Shown here: positions 2,729-33,801 of the stretch, piece after piece
How the letters are laid out: the number at the start of each line of letters is the position of its first letter
How positions within the stretch are numbered: the first letter of the stretch is position 1
The notes under the pieces: model-generated
Seen by the model: the letters and a program-made list of their open reading frames with translations, nothing else
Database searches by the model: none
What the model was told of the DNA's origin: nothing
Program-made: the position numbers and the translations under genes
IMG/VR virus record: IMGVR_UViG_3300049255_000061
Coordinates: 1-34,852 of that record
Source: a virus
Reading direction: 5' to 3' (one strand)
DNA length: 34,852 nt

Positions 2729-2828
2729 TACAATTTGATACACTTTTTTCTTCAGAATACAAGAAATAGCTCTTGCGCCTTACGGCAGAATAAAGTAGGG
2801 TTATTTCTAAGCTCGAAGAGCCATGCGC

Positions 2829-2862
2829 AGCCGCCCGAATTTTATTCGTTGGCGGCTTTTTT
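2829..2862 (+). terminator. Rho-independent terminator after the replication operon
   Basis: AGCCGCC at 2829-2835 pairs with GGCGGCT at 2851-2857, an inner CGAA/TTCG extends the stem, and a run of six T follows. It lies 100 bases after the stop at 2728 and before the HNH gene, so it should end the leftmost transcript. It also argues against translating the upstream in-frame extension of the HNH gene, which would run through it. Confidence 0.75.
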
Positions 2863-2889
2863 CACGTCTTCCTCCTGCTGGGGAATGAA

Positions 2890-2925
2890 GCGGCGGACAC
2901 AAACGGGTAGCTCCCGGTCCGCCGC
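2890..2925 (+). promoter_or_regulatory. Strong hairpin in the leader of the HNH gene
   Basis: GCGGCGGAC (2890-2898) is exactly complementary to GTCCGCCGC (2917-2925). Inside it a second stem, CGGG/CCCG (2904-2907 with 2913-2916), closes a five-base loop. There is no T-run, so it is not a classical terminator. It ends 40 bases before the HNH start and could protect the mRNA end, control translation or bind a protein. The role is not known. Confidence 0.55.
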
Positions 2926-2965
2926 GATCCCAGCAAGGCCCAATCCCAGCAAAGGACAAACTGGC

Positions 2966-3460
2966 ATGCACAAGCTCACTCACGAGCGGCTTATTGCCGT
3001 GGCCGATTACGACCCCACGACTGGCCGCTTCACCGCCAAGATAAATCGCAATCGCGTTAAGGCTGGCACCATCCTCGGCACGCGTCACGGCAACGGGTAT
3101 TTGGTCGCCCGCATCGACGGCGAGCGCTTCCTATTGCACCGCCTGGCTTATTTTTACATGAAGGGCACGTGGCCGAAGGACGAGATCGACCACCGCAACC
3201 TGCGCAAAGACGAAAACCGTTTCGCGAACCTGAGGGAAGCAACCCGTCAGCTCAACGCGGCCAACATCGGACCCCAGCGCAATAATCCGCTCGGCCGCAA
3301 GGGCGTATATGTCCAGAACCGCAAGAAGCGATACCGGGCGCAAATCAAGGTTGATAACCGGACGATCTATCTGGGGAGCTTCAAGCATTCCGAGACCGCA
3401 AGCGTTTTCTACGCTCTAGCCGCCATGCGCCATTTCGGCGATTTCGCCCGCGTAGCCTAA
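2966..3460 (+). CDS. HNH endonuclease with AP2-like C-terminal DNA-binding region
   Basis: A 164-residue protein. The start at 2966 has AAAGGA ten bases upstream; an in-frame extension to 2735 is rejected because it spans a terminator. HNH core: HR at 58-59, IDHRN at 74-78, then N84 and N88 in DENRFANLREAT, a standard HNH_3-type beta-beta-alpha-metal site. Residues 105-160 (GVYVQNRKKRYRAQI, then IYLGSF) look like an AP2-type domain. This layout is typical of free-standing phage homing endonucleases that nick or cut DNA and spread to related genomes. Its place about 0.7 kb before terS also resembles packaging-associated HNH proteins, but the AP2-like part favours a homing role. Confidence 0.88.
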   Translation: MHKLTHERLIAVADYDPTTGRFTAKINRNRVKAGTILGTRHGNGYLVARIDGERFLLHRLAYFYMKGTWPKDEIDHRNLRKDENRFANLREATRQLNAANIGPQRNNPLGRKGVYVQNRKKRYRAQIKVDNRTIYLGSFKHSETASVFYALAAMRHFGDFARVA

Positions 3461-3927: not shown

Positions 3928-4121
3928 TGTCGCATTTCATGCGTGACGATCATTCACTCGACATTTTCCGAGAAGAGCGTCTTGGCCGCAATCGCCGCCG
4001 GGGGAAAGTTAAGCGCGAGAACCGTTATGGCGTTTTTGATGGGGAGAAGATCGTTCCGCTTAAGCATGTGTTTGGCGCTGAATATGTATCAGCACAACAT
4101 GAGCCGACATCGGATTTTTAA
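3927..4121 (+). CDS. Small basic unknown protein upstream of terS
   Basis: A 64-residue protein with an Arg/Lys-rich middle (RLGRNRRRGKVKREN). The ATG at 3927 overlaps the previous stop as TGATG, which is why it is preferred over a GTG three codons earlier. It ends six bases before terS. Function is not recognisable; the position makes a packaging accessory possible but unproven. Confidence 0.55.
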   Translation: MSHFMRDDHSLDIFREERLGRNRRRGKVKRENRYGVFDGEKIVPLKHVFGAEYVSAQHEPTSDF

Positions 4122-4127
4122 AGCGCC

Positions 4128-4610
4128 ATGACCCGCAAGCTCACTCCTAAGCAGGAGAAGTTCTGCCAGCTCTACATCGAGCTCGGCGATGCTTCGGCGG
4201 CTTATCGCGGCGCCTACGATGCCAAGGCCATGAAGCCTACCACCATTAACCGCAAAGCCACCGAGTTAATGCGGAACGGCATTGTTACGGCACGCATCGA
4301 TGAAATCCGCAAACCTATCCAAGAGCGCGTCGCAGCCAAATTCGAGGTCACCCTCGAAAACCTCACGGCTATGCTTTTCGCGGATCGAAAGAAGGCTGAG
4401 AGCTTGGAAGCGTCTGCGGCTGGGATCGCGTGCGCGCGCGACACGGTGATGGCGATCGCCAAGCTGAACGGGCTCATCGTCGATCAGGTCAAGACCAACA
4501 ACACCTCATACGTGATGGGCGTCGAACGCCTTAAGAGCGAGGAAGAGTTTGACGCAGCCTATAGCATGGGCGTGGAAAGCGCAGCCGGGTCCTCAGACGG
4601 CTTTGATTGA
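4128..4610 (+). CDS. terS: Terminase small subunit (TerS)
   Basis: A 160-residue protein. The N-terminus KLTPKQEKFCQLYIE, then ASAAYRGAYDA and an N-x-x-AT-x-LM stretch, matches the Terminase_2 small-subunit family: a helix-turn-helix domain that recognises the packaging site, followed by helices that form the ring (RKPIQERVAAKFEVTLENL). It would bind phage DNA and deliver it to TerL. The last 62 bases overlap the start of terL in another frame, so the two are probably coupled. Confidence 0.88.
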   Translation: MTRKLTPKQEKFCQLYIELGDASAAYRGAYDAKAMKPTTINRKATELMRNGIVTARIDEIRKPIQERVAAKFEVTLENLTAMLFADRKKAESLEASAAGIACARDTVMAIAKLNGLIVDQVKTNNTSYVMGVERLKSEEEFDAAYSMGVESAAGSSDGFD

Positions 4611-6885
4611 CTGCCCGTACCCCGAAATCTTCTTCGGCGGCGCGCGCGGCGGCGGCAAGGGCTTACCCAAGGAGCATAGGGTCTTAACGCCTTTCGGCTG
4701 GCGAGAAATCGGCCGCCTGAAGGAAGGCGACAAGATTTGCGCCACGGATGGTACGGTTACAAGCGTCATTGGCGTCTATCATCGCGGCGTGCAGCCCATG
4801 TATCGGCTGACGTTGCATGACGGCACCGTTGTTCGTTGCGACGAGGATCACATCTGGCTGGGCTGGGAAGCGAACAAGTCGCGCAAGATTGGGAACGAGC
4901 GCACTTCTGGTGAGAGTGCGGCGCGAAAATGGACAACGCGCCAGATTTTCGGGCATTACCAGCGCCATGGCATCAAACACAGAATAGCGCTTCCGGTCAT
5001 TTCAGCGCCGTGTGCGATGAACGGCAACGCAAGGTGGGGCGAAATTCCCCCTTACGTGATTGGCGTTCTCTTGGGCAACTGCGGCTCTCTCGATAAGCGT
5101 GTTCCATCCGGCCTTTTGTTCGCACCCGCAGATCAGCGCTGGGAAGTGCTTCGCGGCCTCATGGACACGGACGGATGGGCTGAAGCGGATGGTGATTGCT
5201 ACTTTGCTTCGATCTCGCGCGGTTTGGCGGAAGATGTAAGGAACCTTGCCCGGTCCCTTGGGGCGGTTGTCACGATGCGGGTTGGGCAGAAGGCTTGCAC
5301 AAACGCAATCGGGCGCCCTTCGACCGAGGCATTCTGCCTTCGCATCAAGATGCCTGAACCGGAGCGCATGTTCGCCTTGCCGAGAAAGCAGGCTGTGTGC
5401 CGCGGCCGGGTTCCGCAAAGCATGGGCGTATGGATCGACAGCATTGAGCCATGCAAACCGGAAGAGACGGTTTGCATCCAAGTGGCGCATCCAAGCAGCT
5501 TGTTCATCATCGAGGATTTCGTCGTCACGCATAATTCGGACGGCGTTTTGGGCAAGTGGGGCGTCAAGGCAGCACTCTACGGCGAACGATTTAACGCGGT
5601 ACTCTTCCGCCCGGAAATGCCGGGCTCCGATGACCTTTGGGCCCGGGCGGAAGAGATTTACGGCCTTGTCGGAGCTTCGCTGAAAGAGTCGAAAAAGACG
5701 ATCATTATGCCGGGCGGCGGCCGTATCCGCTTCCGCCCGCTCGAAAGCGTCTCGGATGCTGGAAAGTATCAGGGCCAGAACCTAAGCGACGTCGCAATCG
5801 AAGAGGCTGGGCTTTATCCAAGTCCGAAACCTATCGATATGATGCACGGCGCGATGCGGTCCGCTTCTGGCGTGCCGACGCAAATGATACTGACCGGCAA
5901 CCCTGGCGGGCCCGGCCAGCAGTGGATTGCTGAGCGCTACATAAACCCCGCCCCGCTTGGCATGAAAAAGCTTATTCGGGTTCTCCCGAATGGCAAAGAG
6001 CATAAATATATCTTCATCCCGTCCAAGGTGCGGGATAACAAGATTCTCCTCGACAACGACCCCAGCTACATTGATCGGCTGTATCTCGTCGGCTCGCCTC
6101 AGCTTGTAAAAGCCTGGCTCGACGGTGATTGGAGCGCGATCGAGGGCGCGTTTTTTCAGGAGTTCAGCGTGGCCAGGCATGTTTTGCGTCCTGTGCCCAT
6201 ACCCGCCTTCTGGATGCGTTTCAGGGCAATGGACTGGGGCTCAGCCAAACCATTCTGCGTCCAGTGGTACGCGGTAGCAGGCGACGACTGGCAGCATCCA
6301 GACGGGCATGTAATCCCGCGAGGCGCCATGGTTTGCTACAGGGAATGGTACGGCGCCAGCGCTCCGAACGTCGGCCTAAAGCTTACTGCGGACGCGGTAG
6401 GCAAGGGCATCAAAGAGCGAGAGAAGGACGAGCGGATTGATGAGGCGGCAAGCGTCATCGATCCCGCGACGTTCACTCAAGACGGCGGACCCTCGATCGC
6501 CGAACGCCTCGCCCTGCAGCGGGTCATATTCCGGCCCGCGGACAACGCACGCATCGCAAGAGCGGGCGCGATGGGTGGCTGGGATACGCTGAGGCAAAGG
6601 CTCATCGGCGATAATGACGGCCGGCCGATGATTTATTGGTTTTCGACGTGCACGGCGCTGATCCGCACGCTGCCGATGCTGCAGCACGATCCGTCCAAGG
6701 CGGAAGACCTCGACACGAAGGCGGAGGACCACGCGGCAGACACGGCACGCTACGCCGTTATGTCCCGCCCATGGGTTCGCCCGCGGCCGATACCGCTTAG
6801 CGAGCGGCTTTCGGTCCCGATGACCCACGATGCAATGAAAGCATGGCGCGAAGATCGCGACCGCAGAGCGAAGGACAGGCTTTGA
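4549..6885 (+). CDS. terL: Terminase large subunit (TerL) interrupted by an in-frame intein
   Basis: 778 residues as encoded, about 486 after removal of the intein. Start is a TTG at 4549 with GAGG upstream; the typical entry QPGPQTALIDC follows at once. The ATPase P-loop is GGARGGGK (30-37) followed, after the intein, by SDG (330-332). Walker B is DVAIEEAG from residue 414. The RNase-H-type nuclease has acidic residues in AMDWGS (about 562), VIDPA (638) and DHAADTARY (727, 731). The enzyme drives ATP-powered DNA packaging into the prohead and cuts the concatemer. Until the intein is removed the P-loop is split and the ATPase should be dead. It overlaps terS by 62 bases. Confidence 0.95.
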   Translation: MTQPIAWAWKAQPGPQTALIDCPYPEIFFGGARGGGKGLPKEHRVLTPFGWREIGRLKEGDKICATDGTVTSVIGVYHRGVQPMYRLTLHDGTVVRCDEDHIWLGWEANKSRKIGNERTSGESAARKWTTRQIFGHYQRHGIKHRIALPVISAPCAMNGNARWGEIPPYVIGVLLGNCGSLDKRVPSGLLFAPADQRWEVLRGLMDTDGWAEADGDCYFASISRGLAEDVRNLARSLGAVVTMRVGQKACTNAIGRPSTEAFCLRIKMPEPERMFALPRKQAVCRGRVPQSMGVWIDSIEPCKPEETVCIQVAHPSSLFIIEDFVVTHNSDGVLGKWGVKAALYGERFNAVLFRPEMPGSDDLWARAEEIYGLVGASLKESKKTIIMPGGGRIRFRPLESVSDAGKYQGQNLSDVAIEEAGLYPSPKPIDMMHGAMRSASGVPTQMILTGNPGGPGQQWIAERYINPAPLGMKKLIRVLPNGKEHKYIFIPSKVRDNKILLDNDPSYIDRLYLVGSPQLVKAWLDGDWSAIEGAFFQEFSVARHVLRPVPIPAFWMRFRAMDWGSAKPFCVQWYAVAGDDWQHPDGHVIPRGAMVCYREWYGASAPNVGLKLTADAVGKGIKEREKDERIDEAASVIDPATFTQDGGPSIAERLALQRVIFRPADNARIARAGAMGGWDTLRQRLIGDNDGRPMIYWFSTCTALIRTLPMLQHDPSKAEDLDTKAEDHAADTARYAVMSRPWVRPRPIPLSERLSVPMTHDAMKAWREDRDRRAKDRL
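4660..5535 (+). mobile_element. Intein inserted in the TerL Walker A motif, class 3-like
   Basis: A 292-residue insert, TerL residues 38-329, lying exactly between Lys and Ser of the P-loop; removing it restores GGARGGGKSDG. Block A is GLPKEHRVLTPFGW with Gly at position 1, where Cys or Ser is usual. Block B contains H101-I-W103. Block F has Cys309 (TVCIQV) where class 1 inteins carry Asp. Block G is VVTHN (Thr327-His328-Asn329) followed by Ser+1. Trp, Cys and Thr in these places form the WCT set that defines class 3 inteins, which splice without an N-terminal nucleophile. Two LAGLIDADG-like blocks remain (about 168-180 and 201-210) but look degenerate. Confidence 0.9.
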
Positions 6886-11486: not shown

Positions 11487-12455
11487 ATGTCGATCCCCAA
11501 CAGCACGTGGACCGAGTTGACCTCGACCACGCTGGCGGATTATCGCGATCAGCTCGCCGATAACGTGCTCAAGCACAATCCCTTCCTCCTGCGTCTTATG
11601 GAGAAGGGGAACACGGACGAGGCTGACGGCGGCTATACGCTTCTCGAAAACCTAATGTACCAGCAGAATTCAACCTTCAGCTGGTACTCTGGCTACATGC
11701 AATTGAACGTCACGGCTTCTGACACGATCACGAGCGCGCAGTTCGACTGGCGCCAGTGCAACGCGAACGTCACGATCAGCGGCCTGGAACAAATCCAGAA
11801 CGCCGGCCGCGAGCAGAAGTTCAGCCTCATCAAGTCGCGTATTCTTGTGGCTGAAAAGACCCTCAAGAATAACGTGGCTGCTTCGCTGTTCTATTCGAAC
11901 ACCGAAAACTCTGGCCTCTCCATCGGCGGTCTGCAGTTCCTCGTCGCGGATAACCCCACAGCGGGCACCGTTGGCGGCATCTCGCAGGCGGCTCAGACCT
12001 GGTGGCAGAACCAATATTACAGCTTCAGCGGCAACTCTGTGACCGCTTCGGCAACCACGATCCAGGCAGCAATGAACTATGTCTACCTCAGGACCCTCCG
12101 CGGTCGCGATGAGATAGACCTGGTTCTCGGCGGCAAGACGTACTTTACGTACTACTGGACCAGCCTACAGACGCAGCAGCGCTTCACGGATTTCGAGAAA
12201 CCGGCGGGCGCAGGCTTCCCGGCTGGCTTGAAGTACATGAATGCCGACTGCTTCTATGACCCGTCCGAGACGACCGGGACGCGCCTCTACATGCTCAACA
12301 CGGACTATTTCCACTTCCGTCCGAGCTCAGAGCGCAATTTCGTTGTGGATCCTGAGAAGGCCTCGACGAACCAGGACGCCATCGTGATCCCGGTCTATTG
12401 GGCTGGCAACCTCACAAGCTCGAACTTGAGCCTCCAGGGAGTGGTCTGCACCTAA
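11487..12455 (+). CDS. Major capsid protein
   Basis: A 322-residue protein with AAGGA before the ATG. The N-terminus is a helix followed by FLLRLMEKGNTDEADGGYTLLENL, then a beta-rich middle and a C-terminus with ERNFVVDPEKAST and NLTSSNLSLQGVV. This layout, size and place between scaffold and decoration-like gene match podovirus-type capsid proteins, expected to adopt the HK97 fold. No signal or protease cleavage site is evident. Confidence 0.85.
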   Translation: MSIPNSTWTELTSTTLADYRDQLADNVLKHNPFLLRLMEKGNTDEADGGYTLLENLMYQQNSTFSWYSGYMQLNVTASDTITSAQFDWRQCNANVTISGLEQIQNAGREQKFSLIKSRILVAEKTLKNNVAASLFYSNTENSGLSIGGLQFLVADNPTAGTVGGISQAAQTWWQNQYYSFSGNSVTASATTIQAAMNYVYLRTLRGRDEIDLVLGGKTYFTYYWTSLQTQQRFTDFEKPAGAGFPAGLKYMNADCFYDPSETTGTRLYMLNTDYFHFRPSSERNFVVDPEKASTNQDAIVIPVYWAGNLTSSNLSLQGVVCT

Positions 12456-17318: not shown

Positions 17319-18439
17319 CGTCGCTTTTTAGCAGCGCGCCGTCCGCGCCGAATCCGTATGAGGTTGCGGCCGCCCAGACGCAATCGAATCTGACGACCGC
17401 GGACGCGCAAGCGAACCTGAACGCGATCTCGCAATATAATCCGTACGGCTCGAGCACCTTCCTCGAGAACGCAAACGGCGATCCCTACGCGCAGGTCTCG
17501 TCAATGACACCCGCGCTTGCCGATCTTCTCGGCGGGCAGGAATATATTGGCGGCGCGCTGCAGGGCACGGCGCAGGGTCTGATCGGCAATCTGCCGACCG
17601 GGGGCGTGAGCACGGATTTCGGGCCGGAAACGAATTCGGCCGAAGAGGGCGCCTTCGCGCAGAGCATGGGGCTGTTGAACCCTGAGTTTAATCTGCAGAA
17701 CCAGGCTCTCAACACAACCCTGACCGATCGCGGCATTCCCGTCGGCTCGGAGGCGTGGAACAACGCGACGTCCGGCCAGCAGCTCACACAGGACGCAGCG
17801 ACGACCAGCGCGGCAGGCGCGGCCGTGGGCGCGGGCAATGCTGAGCAGGCGCAGCTTTTTGGTGAAGGTTTGAGCGCGAACCAGCTTCCGTATCAAGAGC
17901 TCGCGCAGACTCTGGGCATGAGCCCCACGTCCGGGCTTATCTCAAGCGCGCCCGGCGCCGTCGCAACGTCGCCCACCACGATCCAGCCCACGAACGTCTC
18001 AGGCGACGTCTATCAATCCTACGCGGACCAGCTCGCGGCCTACAATCAGCAGCAAAACAACCTGACAAGCGGATTGCTTGGCGCGGCGACGCTTGGCCTT
18101 TCTCCGGCGGTTGGTGCAGGTCTCGGCTTGGGCAATTCCTCGGTATTCGGCTCCTTGCTCTCGGACGAAAACGAGAAAGAAAACCGCAGACCGGCGGATG
18201 GCGAGGACATCCTGTTCCATCTCGGCAAGCTCGACGTCGATCATTATGACTACCGGGACAGCGCCCAGCACAAATATGGCGTTCCGGAACACCGCACGGG
18301 GCCCATGGCGCAGGATTGGGCAAAGCACTTCGGCGGTGATGGCCACATGATCGATCTGGGCGACATGGCGGGCAAGATGCTCGCGGCAATCCAGGCGCTC
18401 GATGCCCGGACCTCTCACCTGGCCGAGAAGCGCGCGTAA
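17315..18439 (+). CDS. Virion protein with C-terminal S74-type intramolecular chaperone domain
   Basis: A 374-residue protein overlapping its neighbour by 4 bases (ATGA). Residues 1-240 are Ala/Gln/Asn/Gly-rich and helical. The last 90 residues (SDENEKENRR at about 283, then DYRDSAQHKYG, GPMAQDW, MIDLGDMAGKMLAAIQAL) follow the Peptidase_S74 pattern: an SD-x-x-x-KEN start, a Y/W-x-Y strand, a G-x-x-AQ-x motif and a final helix. Such domains help trimers fold and then cut themselves off. They are usual on tail spikes, so the protein is probably a structural appendage or internal protein with a self-releasing end. Confidence 0.72.
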   Translation: MTSLFSSAPSAPNPYEVAAAQTQSNLTTADAQANLNAISQYNPYGSSTFLENANGDPYAQVSSMTPALADLLGGQEYIGGALQGTAQGLIGNLPTGGVSTDFGPETNSAEEGAFAQSMGLLNPEFNLQNQALNTTLTDRGIPVGSEAWNNATSGQQLTQDAATTSAAGAAVGAGNAEQAQLFGEGLSANQLPYQELAQTLGMSPTSGLISSAPGAVATSPTTIQPTNVSGDVYQSYADQLAAYNQQQNNLTSGLLGAATLGLSPAVGAGLGLGNSSVFGSLLSDENEKENRRPADGEDILFHLGKLDVDHYDYRDSAQHKYGVPEHRTGPMAQDWAKHFGGDGHMIDLGDMAGKMLAAIQALDARTSHLAEKRA

Positions 18440-18440
18440 C

Positions 18441-20825
18441 GTGGCTGACGCATCGACGAATGCGGAAACGCCGGATAGCCAAGGCGTTCCGCCCGCATTT
18501 CTTCAGATTCCGGCTCAGCCGGCCGCACCATCGATCAATCCGGAGCGGATTGCGAGTGTTTCGACGCGCCTGGAAACCGGCGCGCGCGATCCCCTTGTCG
18601 GCGTTGGCAGCGTTGCCCATGACACCGGCGGCTCCAAGTCTTACGGCAATTTCGGGCTGAATAGCCTTCCGGGCTCTTCGGCCTGGCAATTTCAGAGCCT
18701 TTATGGGCAAGACCTTGGATTGACGGCGCAACCCGGCACGCCTCAGTTTGACGCACAATGGAAAGCGGCAGCGGCGACGGACCCCAAGAAGCTGCGATCG
18801 GCCGAACTGGATTGGTATTCGCGGACAGTTCTGCCGAAGATCGGTGCGAATTTGCAGGCTGTTGGCGTTTCGCCCGAGGCTGCGAATGACCCGCGCGTCG
18901 TATCCTATTTCGCGGATCGTTCTGTCCAGCAGGGGACGGGCTCGATCTCGGAAAGCCACAAGCACTCCGCTCGCATCAATGAGGCGTGGCAGGCATCGGG
19001 CGGCGATCCCGTGGCGTTCTTGAAGAACATGAGTCAGCGGGACCTCGCCGCTTACCAGCAAGACTTTCCGCATGCGATCGCGAGCGGTGTTTATCCCTAC
19101 AACGGCCACGTGAACCGTATCGCGGGCCGCGAGAACGCATCGCTCAATATCGGCGCGCAGCCATCGGACGGCTCCGTCGTGGGGCAAATCGTAAACGCAA
19201 TCGCTTCTCCCGTAACAAGGGCATCCAGGATGGCAGATTATCAGAACGGGCCGAGCGCAAACCCGCAATACGGCAACGGCCCGGTTGCACCCGCAAACCA
19301 CGATCTCGCGAAAGCTCTGATTTCGGGGGCGTTTTCTGAGTCGAATTCGCCCGGCAAGGGCACCATGATTGGCAAGCTCGCACAGCTCATCACCGGCATG
19401 AGCATGGAAAACCAATATAATGATGCCCAGCGGTCTTTCTTGGCGGCTGACCCCGCTCGTGGTGGCAGCGGGAATGTTCAGCAAGTGCCGCAAGCGCAGC
19501 CAGGCGGACAGCCGGGGTTTCTCTCTCAGCTCGTGCACGCCTTGACCGGCATTCCGGCACAGAAGCCAGCGCCCCCCCCCGCCCCCGCTCCTGCGCGGCC
19601 CGTACAAGTCCCTACAGCGGCCAACCCCTTCGCTGGCGTTTCCGTTGCGCCGACGCAAGCGGGCGGCGCAACGCTTCCCGGTAGCGTCACAGCGGGCGCT
19701 CCGCAGGCACCGGCACCTCAAGCAGCCCCACAGGACTCTCCCGCTCCCGCGCCTTCACAAGCTCCGGCACAAGCGCCTGTTCAGCCGCAATCTTCAGCGG
19801 CACAACCCTTTACGCTTGCCCCCGCAAATGATCCCGCAGCTGCGCGCGCCAAGATTGAGCAGACGTGGCCGCAGAACGTCATTGACTACGCGACATCGCC
19901 TCAAATGCGGCAGTACGACCCTCAGCGTTATGAGGCAGGCGTGAAAATGGCGAATGAAAAACGGGCCGCCGTTGCCGCCATAGATAACGCGCCGAATGAA
20001 AGGTTCGATTTCACTGACAGCAACGGCCTAGTCCATCACATGCAGGGCAATCAGTACAAGACCTCAACCGAATACGCTCCGCCAACTGATCCGGCCAAGA
20101 TCGCGGGCGCGAAAAAGGCCGCAGAATCTGAAGCCGAAGTCGGTCCGGAAGGCGAAAAGGCCTATGCCAAGGAAACCGGCACCTATTACGGCAAGAAGTT
20201 TAATGCGATCCAGACGAACGCTCAGACCTCAATGACGGAGCTCCCGCAATTGCGTCTCCTGCAGAAGGTCATGAACGATCCGGCTTACACCTCAGGTACA
20301 GGGGCAAACGCGCTCGAAAGGCTTTCATCGGCGGCCCGGACGATGGGGCTCGGTTCCGGCGAAACGGCCACCCTGATGCAGTTTGCCGACAAGCTGGGCA
20401 AGACCGGCGCGCTGGAGAATATTGAGGAGCTTGGAACTCAAGGCGCCGTCCGCGTGCCGACCCTGCAGCTTATCGCCAAGTCGAACTATGCTCCGGACAA
20501 TACGCCGGAAGCAAACCGCGCCGTTGTCGAAATCCGGGCGCGCACCGCAGAACGCACGCAAGAGATTGCCGACATGGCAACCGATTATGCGGCGGAGCAC
20601 GGCGGGCGTATTGATGCCGGTTTCGATAAGCTTGTGCGGCAGACCTACAAGGACAAGCCGCTCTTCACGCCTCAGGAAATCGAAGACTACAGCTCACTGT
20701 TCAGCGGCAAACAACCGGCGGTCAAGTCTGCGGCAAGCAGCGCACCGGCAGCACCCGCGCCAGCTCCAGCTTTCCCGCCGGGGGACGTTACGGCGGAAAT
20801 GCGAAGAAGGGGGCTTCTGAAATGA
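18441..20825 (+). CDS. Large virion protein with putative murein-hydrolase-like N-terminus
   Basis: A 794-residue protein starting at GTG 18441, two bases after the preceding stop. Residues 35-190 (ARDPLVGVGSVAHDTGGSKSYGNFGLN...YGQDLGLTAQPGTPQFDAQW) resemble a lysozyme-like module present in phage internal proteins, with an S-Y-G-x-x-x-L-x-S core. Residues 370-470 are a Pro/Ala/Gln-rich linker. The C-terminal 320 residues are mostly helical. Size and place match ejected internal virion proteins that open the cell wall. The hydrolase reading is inference from pattern. Confidence 0.6.
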   Translation: MADASTNAETPDSQGVPPAFLQIPAQPAAPSINPERIASVSTRLETGARDPLVGVGSVAHDTGGSKSYGNFGLNSLPGSSAWQFQSLYGQDLGLTAQPGTPQFDAQWKAAAATDPKKLRSAELDWYSRTVLPKIGANLQAVGVSPEAANDPRVVSYFADRSVQQGTGSISESHKHSARINEAWQASGGDPVAFLKNMSQRDLAAYQQDFPHAIASGVYPYNGHVNRIAGRENASLNIGAQPSDGSVVGQIVNAIASPVTRASRMADYQNGPSANPQYGNGPVAPANHDLAKALISGAFSESNSPGKGTMIGKLAQLITGMSMENQYNDAQRSFLAADPARGGSGNVQQVPQAQPGGQPGFLSQLVHALTGIPAQKPAPPPAPAPARPVQVPTAANPFAGVSVAPTQAGGATLPGSVTAGAPQAPAPQAAPQDSPAPAPSQAPAQAPVQPQSSAAQPFTLAPANDPAAARAKIEQTWPQNVIDYATSPQMRQYDPQRYEAGVKMANEKRAAVAAIDNAPNERFDFTDSNGLVHHMQGNQYKTSTEYAPPTDPAKIAGAKKAAESEAEVGPEGEKAYAKETGTYYGKKFNAIQTNAQTSMTELPQLRLLQKVMNDPAYTSGTGANALERLSSAARTMGLGSGETATLMQFADKLGKTGALENIEELGTQGAVRVPTLQLIAKSNYAPDNTPEANRAVVEIRARTAERTQEIADMATDYAAEHGGRIDAGFDKLVRQTYKDKPLFTPQEIEDYSSLFSGKQPAVKSAASSAPAAPAPAPAFPPGDVTAEMRRRGLLK

Positions 20826-32512: not shown

Positions 32513-32860
32513 ATGAATGCGTCACACCTCCAATTGCTCACGCTTGAACAAGTTCGGGATATGCACCCGCCCGAAAAACGTCCATCGCTACGATGGATAA
32601 GCACCCACGCCGACCGCACCAAAACGAAAGTTCGTCGCGGGCGATTTGCGTTTGTGCCGGCAAACCGGCTTGAATACTTTTGGGAGGGCAGGGTATGGCC
32701 CAGCGGAGAAATCATAGAGCGACCTATCGGCCGCGCGGCCCAAAAGGCGAGCTCCAGGCGAGGTTCTGGCTCCCGGAAAGGCAAGAAAACGGCACCGTCA
32801 GCTTTGGATTCTGTGAGCGCAGCACACGAAGCACTGACCCAGCTCGCGCAAGAGCATTAG
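32513..32860 (+). CDS. Small basic protein overlapping the integrase start, excisionase candidate
   Basis: A 115-residue protein from ATG 32513 with TGAGGA before it. The first 70 residues (LLTLEQVRDMHPPEKRPSLRWIST, then RRGRFAFVPANRLEYFW) could hold a winged-helix-like DNA-binding domain; the C-terminal 45 are basic and low complexity. The last 166 bases overlap the integrase in another frame. Small DNA-binding genes just before a tyrosine integrase are often excisionases, so this is a candidate; no excisionase motif is certain. Confidence 0.5.
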   Translation: MNASHLQLLTLEQVRDMHPPEKRPSLRWISTHADRTKTKVRRGRFAFVPANRLEYFWEGRVWPSGEIIERPIGRAAQKASSRRGSGSRKGKKTAPSALDSVSAAHEALTQLAQEH

Positions 32861-33801
32861 TCGAGCAATGGGTAGCCGAAGCACACTCGGCGCTTTTGAG
32901 GCCCGTCGAAACAAAGACGACGGGCATGAACTTCGCCGTAGCGGTGCAACGCTACGCTGCGCTTGGCAAGGGCAAGTCAAACATCCCGTTTCTTAGAAAG
33001 ATCATCGATAAGGCCGGCGTCAAACCGATCGAAGAAGTCGATCAGGACTTTGTTGACCAGCTCGCCCGCGAGATTTATCCGGGCGCCACGGCCGCGACCA
33101 TCAACCGGCAAATCTTCACACCGATATGCGCGGTCTTGAAAGCGGTGGAGTCCAAAGCGTTCCGGCGGCCGCCGCTAAAGCGCCCCGCGAACTCCCTTCC
33201 GGATACTCCGATCGAAATTCCGCCCGATGAATGGTATGCGCAGATCCTCGAGGCCGCGCCCGCCAATATCGCGGCATATATCCTTTTCAACCGCTTTCAT
33301 GGCCGGCGGACATCGGAAGGGCTGAAAATCAAGCCCGCGCATGTAGAGGCCGATTGGCACGTCACAGTGCGCGATAACAAGGGCAAGCAGCACATTCGCT
33401 TTCGCCTGGCCGATGAGGTCGTAGAGCAGCTGAACCGCTATCCTTGGCGCCTGAATCAATACCTATTCGGTTTCTCCTCAAAGTCCCGGTATTACAAAAA
33501 GCTCAAGGCGCTATGCAAAGAGTTTGGGTTGAAATATTACCGGCCAAAGGACGCCGGGCGCCACGCCTTTGCAACAGGTCTTCTCAAGCAAGGCCGTACT
33601 TTGAAACAGGTGCAGGCCAGCGGCCGGTGGAAATCTTCGAAAGCCGTCGAGCGATACGCTCATCTCGAGGTCAATGAGGTGGACGAAAAAGCCCGCGGCC
33701 TAGCTTCATCTTGGCTGCAAAATGCAACGCGTAAAGCGGACGTGATTTCCCCTGCAAACTGGTCACCCGCTGGTCTGAGAAAAGCGGGAGATGATAAGTG
33801 A
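32695..33801 (+). CDS. int: Tyrosine integrase
   Basis: A 368-residue tyrosine recombinase from ATG 32695, after GGAGGG; a TTG five codons earlier is the alternative. An N-terminal SAM-like core-binding part (about 85-145) precedes the catalytic domain: Arg I in RRTSEG (near 207), Lys in the beta-hairpin DNKGKQH, Arg II in AGRHAFAT, Trp in SGRWKSS in place of the usual His, and the nucleophile Tyr in ERYAHLE. The expected box II His before AGR seems replaced by Lys or Asp (RPKDAGRH). It should act on the tRNA-Thr fragment 34 bases downstream. Confidence 0.88.
   Translation: MAQRRNHRATYRPRGPKGELQARFWLPERQENGTVSFGFCERSTRSTDPARARALVEQWVAEAHSALLRPVETKTTGMNFAVAVQRYAALGKGKSNIPFLRKIIDKAGVKPIEEVDQDFVDQLAREIYPGATAATINRQIFTPICAVLKAVESKAFRRPPLKRPANSLPDTPIEIPPDEWYAQILEAAPANIAAYILFNRFHGRRTSEGLKIKPAHVEADWHVTVRDNKGKQHIRFRLADEVVEQLNRYPWRLNQYLFGFSSKSRYYKKLKALCKEFGLKYYRPKDAGRHAFATGLLKQGRTLKQVQASGRWKSSKAVERYAHLEVNEVDEKARGLASSWLQNATRKADVISPANWSPAGLRKAGDDK

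Follow-up and report, generated by a model that had tools for sequence, protein, structure and literature searches.

Class 3 inteins, terminase inteins and the P-loop insertion site have all been published, and they provide the framework in which the terminase gene presented here is to be read. Class 3 inteins are recognized by the lack of a Cys at A:1, a Cys at F:4 and a WCT triplet (PMC7891396, PMC5050341), and their splicing starts with attack of the F:4 Cys on the N-scissile bond, after which the N-extein passes to the +1 residue and Asn cyclises (PMC7891396). A catalogue from 2020 holds 1701 of them, 82.5% with LAGLIDADG motifs (PMC7891396), and a phage origin has been proposed for the class, as cited in PMC5050341. 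In mycobacteriophages, terminases are the main intein hosts, and TerL1-c, -d and -e are class 3, with splicing shown for -c and -e (PMC5050341). The Gaia TerL1-e sequence, which reads KCISV...VTHN/S (the slash here and below marks a splice junction), is among those shown to splice (PMC5050341).

The virus record analysed here, IMGVR_UViG_3300049255_000061 (34,852 bases; hereafter the window), carries a terL gene that very probably harbors a splicing-competent class 3 intein within its P-loop, one that would have arrived as a homing intein and has probably since lost its homing endonuclease (HEN) function. The mycobacteriophage inteins TerL1-a to -e likewise occupy the terminase ATPase domain, and TerL1-a, between the P-loop Lys and Thr, shares the site found here (PMC5050341), but they belong to another terminase and phage and are 32-33% identical to the intein of the window. 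The two mycobacteriophage HENs tested, those of TerL1-b and -c, were both active (PMC5050341), whereas the truncated HEN described below is probably inactive. The solved class 3 inteins (Tori et al. 2010; Tori and Perler 2011; MsmDnaB, 6bs8; MchDnaB1, 6rix) show the same absence of a residue-1 nucleophile, the same WCT and THN residues and the same HINT fold, but they comprise 125-145 residues without a LAGLIDADG domain, whereas the intein of the window has a terminase host and retains a truncated LAGLIDADG domain.

Counterparts at the P-loop Lys recur in other terminases. The L013 intein, identical to that of a Cohaesibacter marisflavi prophage terminase (L098), shares the Lys/Ser site, Gly1 and Ser+1 and is 54% identical where aligned, but it is 358 aa long, carries both LAGLIDADG motifs (GVLIGDGS and GLMDTDG) and lies in a different TerL extein. 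In L014, whose TerL belongs to the family of the window's TerL, an intein with Leu1 and Thr+1 (45% identical) occupies precisely the same position. The TerL intein of Acinetobacter phage TaPaz (MZ043613; GSGK/A...THN/T), annotated as intein-containing, has the Trp of block B and the Cys of block F but differs in Ala1, Thr+1 and an identity of 31%. Across 397 genomes of Cohaesibacter's order, matches were found in Cohaesibacter itself, with one weak match besides. Because each element is known and the combination recurs in L013, L014 and TaPaz, the window provides a clear but ordinary new example with a decayed endonuclease, and knowledge of class 3 inteins is unchanged by it. Its value would be as a clear-cut natural example in which a class 3 intein, after endonuclease loss, still ties an essential phage motor to splicing, and L013 offers a full-length, HEN-bearing counterpart for comparison.

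The terL gene and its junctions

The terminase genes and the parts of the terL precursor are arranged as follows.
4128..4610, + strand: terminase small subunit gene (terS), directly upstream of terL and overlapping it; phrog_51, E=6.4e-19
4549..6885, + strand: terL precursor gene, 778-aa ORF, 486 aa once spliced; TTG start overlapping terS
4549..4659, + strand: N-extein, 37 aa, ending in the Walker A sequence ...GGARGGGK
4660..5535, + strand: predicted class 3 intein, 292 aa, splitting Walker A between Lys and Ser, Gly first (4660-4662)
5536..6882, + strand: C-extein, 449 aa, first residue Ser+1 of Walker A, then the rest of TerL

The TTG start is backed by homology to L002 and others in the residues preceding the P-loop. 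The insert corresponds to residues 38-329 of the ORF, between Lys37 and Ser330, with the N-terminus GLPKEHRVLTPFGW and the C-terminus VVTHN/S. Read without it, TerL continues as FFGGARGGGK-SDGVLGKWG. The intein-less TerL proteins of the viral contigs L002-L009, to which the spliced TerL is 41-55% identical, have an intact P-loop of the form GG[AE]RGGGK[ST]D, and the P-loop of the Pseudanabaena phage Pam5 terminase is likewise uninterrupted and without insert; these unbroken P-loops confirm the junction. An earlier reading made from the DNA alone (the sequence-only reading) had placed the insert at 4660-5535 between the Lys and Ser of Walker A, and all of its coordinates were reproduced, including a spliced length of 486 residues, obtained here by leaving the insert out of the 778-aa ORF. 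An alignment placing Gly38 outside the intein, named in that reading as grounds for abandoning it, is contradicted by many relatives, which together with the intein-less homologues fix the junction at GK/x.

The identity of the extein as the terminase large subunit rests on the match of the C-extein to PHROG phrog_2 (terminase large subunit, E=1.3e-27) and on the continuity of Walker A once the insert is left out. The frame is intact, and the identities to L013 at the three codon positions (0.62/0.69/0.35) fit purifying selection on the protein.

Catalytic residues, relatives and predicted fold

Relatives were sought with a six-intein alignment as query and with GLMDTDG or MDTDGWA required; the hits comprised 80 loci in viral sequences and three in genomes. 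Phage class 3 inteins at GK/S or GK/T proved numerous, and 81 distinct inteins were kept because their GK junction was clear and they ended in HN; the HN end was therefore an inclusion criterion, while the other catalytic residues were not selected except through homology. The catalytic positions of the intein compare with these relatives as follows.
4849..4851, + strand: block B His, intein His64 (B:10); 81/81 relatives
4855..4857, + strand: block B Trp, intein Trp66 (ORF Trp103; B:12), the W of the WCT triplet; 80/81 relatives
5473..5475, + strand: block F Cys, intein Cys272 (ORF Cys309; F:4), predicted branch-point nucleophile; 81/81 relatives
5527..5535, + strand: block G Thr290-His291-Asn292 (G:5-G:7), C-terminal splice junction; Thr 81/81 relatives

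In ORF numbering the last three residues are Thr327, His328 and Asn329, and Ser+1 is Ser330. Residue 1 is Ala in 37 of the 81 relatives, Gly in 10 and Cys in one. In the window the homologue-defined junction makes it Gly, neither Cys nor Ser, and since the earliest Cys of the insert occupies intein position 27, no Cys can serve as residue 1. With Cys272 at F:4, Trp66 at B:12 and Thr290 at G:5, the insert displays each of the published class 3 sequence features, and these residues are best explained by class 3 splicing. The Gly start without a usable nucleophile, the Trp103, Cys309 and Thr327 markers and the His328-Asn329/Ser+1 end had all been correctly recognized in the sequence-only reading, which nevertheless overlooked that the stretch from block B to block F contains a truncated LAGLIDADG endonuclease. 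When the 81 inteins were made into a profile from which the window was left out, the insert scored 277 bits (E=1e-80 for Z=1e6) and 200 shuffles yielded no reported match, ruling out a chance motif match.

Two further loci have unusual arrangements. In L018, a single viral contig, two class 3-like inteins (187-1047 and 4001-4918; 287 and 306 aa, among the shortest found) lie in two neighbouring P-loop proteins. The TerL of Acidovorax phage ACF1 (L105) has an intein at GK/C with Cys1 together with a block B Trp, a block F Cys and THN, and thereby joins a class 1 nucleophile with the class 3 triplet.

The AlphaFold2 model of the intein, computed from 66 sequences, has a mean pLDDT of 93.9 and a pTM of 0.90, and the full-length structure is similar to PI-SceI (Z 23.0). 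The splicing domain superimposes on 6bs8, the class 3 DnaB intein of M. smegmatis, with Z 19.1 and an rmsd of 1.5 Å over 123/125 aligned residues, and on M. chimaera MchDnaB1 6rix with Z 18.4. A class 1 Prp8 intein scores Z 18.9 against the same domain, a tie with 6bs8 given that Z differences below 1 count as ties. The HINT fold is thus like that of the solved class 3 inteins and confirms an intein, but fold by itself does not separate the classes, and it is the residues that decide class.

The endonuclease remnant

The region between blocks B and F retains two LAGLIDADG elements.
5050..5079, + strand: remnant of the first LAGLIDADG motif, ending GVLLGN; Asn140 where 76/81 relatives have Asp
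5155..5175, + strand: second LAGLIDADG motif, GLMDTDG; Asp169 and Asp171 kept; Pfam LAGLIDADG_3, 3.7e-06

The Pfam match spans residues 162-211. Relative to L013 and L014, a block after GVLLGN is absent from the window, so that approximately 60-70 residues are missing between the two motifs, with the deletion junction between 5079 and 5080; the 81-intein profile skips columns 134-193 (60 columns) cleanly between intein residues 140 and 141. The spacing of the motifs (blocks C-E) is 32 residues in the window versus 91-97 in L013 and L014, and is shorter than in any relative in which both motifs were located, the next being 48. An active LAGLIDADG endonuclease has two motifs with catalytic Asp and both half-domains, a complement that is incomplete here, the first motif ending GN and not GD; the same Asp-to-Asn change occurs in 4 of 81 other inteins. 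Because of the deletion and the loss of the first catalytic Asp, the homing function has probably been lost. What remains of the HEN shares 51% identity with L013, compared with 55-60% for the splicing blocks, and this nearly equal conservation suggests that the loss may be recent or that the remaining half may have a structural role.

The deletion could conceivably be an assembly error at the 5079/5080 junction, as it is known from one virus record and an exact 30-mer search gave no second copy in viral contigs, a collection that may omit records very near the window. The DNA of L013 and L014 is too divergent from the window for a microhomology repeat to be called at the deletion.

Proposed splicing of TerL and the surrounding genes

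The insertion splits Walker A, and the packaging ATPase activity would therefore need splicing: in the precursor the motif would be broken, leaving a protein incapable of ATP hydrolysis or DNA packaging. In the mechanism we propose, Cys272, with His64, Thr290 and Trp66 helping, would attack the Lys37-Gly38 peptide bond to yield an internal thioester branch, Ser330 (+1) would then receive the N-extein, Asn329 would cyclise with His328 assisting, and an acyl shift would link Lys37 to Ser330 to restore GGGKS. The element would have come in as a LAGLIDADG homing intein and only later have undergone its deletion and Asp substitution, and an intein that no longer homes could have been kept because only its exact excision spares TerL.

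The HEN deletion or Gly1 could instead have killed splicing, leaving a decayed class 3 intein and a non-functional TerL in a defective prophage, an outcome that we regard as very unlikely. The HEN is truncated, an Arthrobacter class 3-like intein is described as a pseudogene (PMC3196547), and the class 3 intein AceL NrdHF no longer spliced once its residue 1 was changed from Ala to Gly (A1G; PMC7891396), so a Gly at this position is not neutral in every intein; yet 10/81 relatives naturally begin with Gly, the catalytic residues are all intact, the frame is open across 778 aa, the HINT fold is confidently predicted, and portal, capsid and lysis genes follow downstream of terL, all in open frames. 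Close to negligible is the probability that the intein belongs to class 1 or class 2 and merely resembles class 3, with a Cys or Ser N-terminal nucleophile elsewhere or with direct attack by Ser+1, since although Ser+1 is present and the class 1 intein gp41-1 also ends THN (PMC7664689), the F:4 Cys is invariant in the relatives, the splicing domain is matched best by a class 3 intein (albeit with class 1 Prp8 tied), and a class 1 intein with a shifted start is ruled out by the absence of any Cys before residue 27 and by the junction that relatives and intein-less homologues fix.

If a splicing-competent class 3 intein is accepted, its retention after homing loss could conceivably reflect a switch in which oxidation of Cys272 delays splicing and restrains the packaging ATPase under host stress, an idea to which we give very little credence. 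Oxidation-dependent delay of splicing has been reported for mycobacterial class 3 DnaB inteins (PMC6195587).

A free-standing HNH endonuclease gene (2735-3460, + strand; HNH_3; phrog_99, E=6.4e-54) lies 0.7 kb upstream of terS. In L008 an HNH gene (4346-4831) whose product is 44% identical to that of the window adjoins an intein-less terL just downstream, so the occurrence of HNH genes beside terL does not depend on the intein. A phage integrase family gene at 32680-33801 (+ strand; PF00589, E=3.9e-10) makes it probable that the phage is temperate. An 807-aa protein encoded at 18402-20825 (+ strand) has no match in PHROG; close to its N-terminus it carries a match to the VgrG3-like C-terminal domain (PF21277, E=3.9e-08). 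The major capsid protein (11487-12455, + strand) shares 45% identity with its counterpart in Bradyrhizobium phage ppBjS10J-1 and 39% with the one in Myxococcus phage Mx8.
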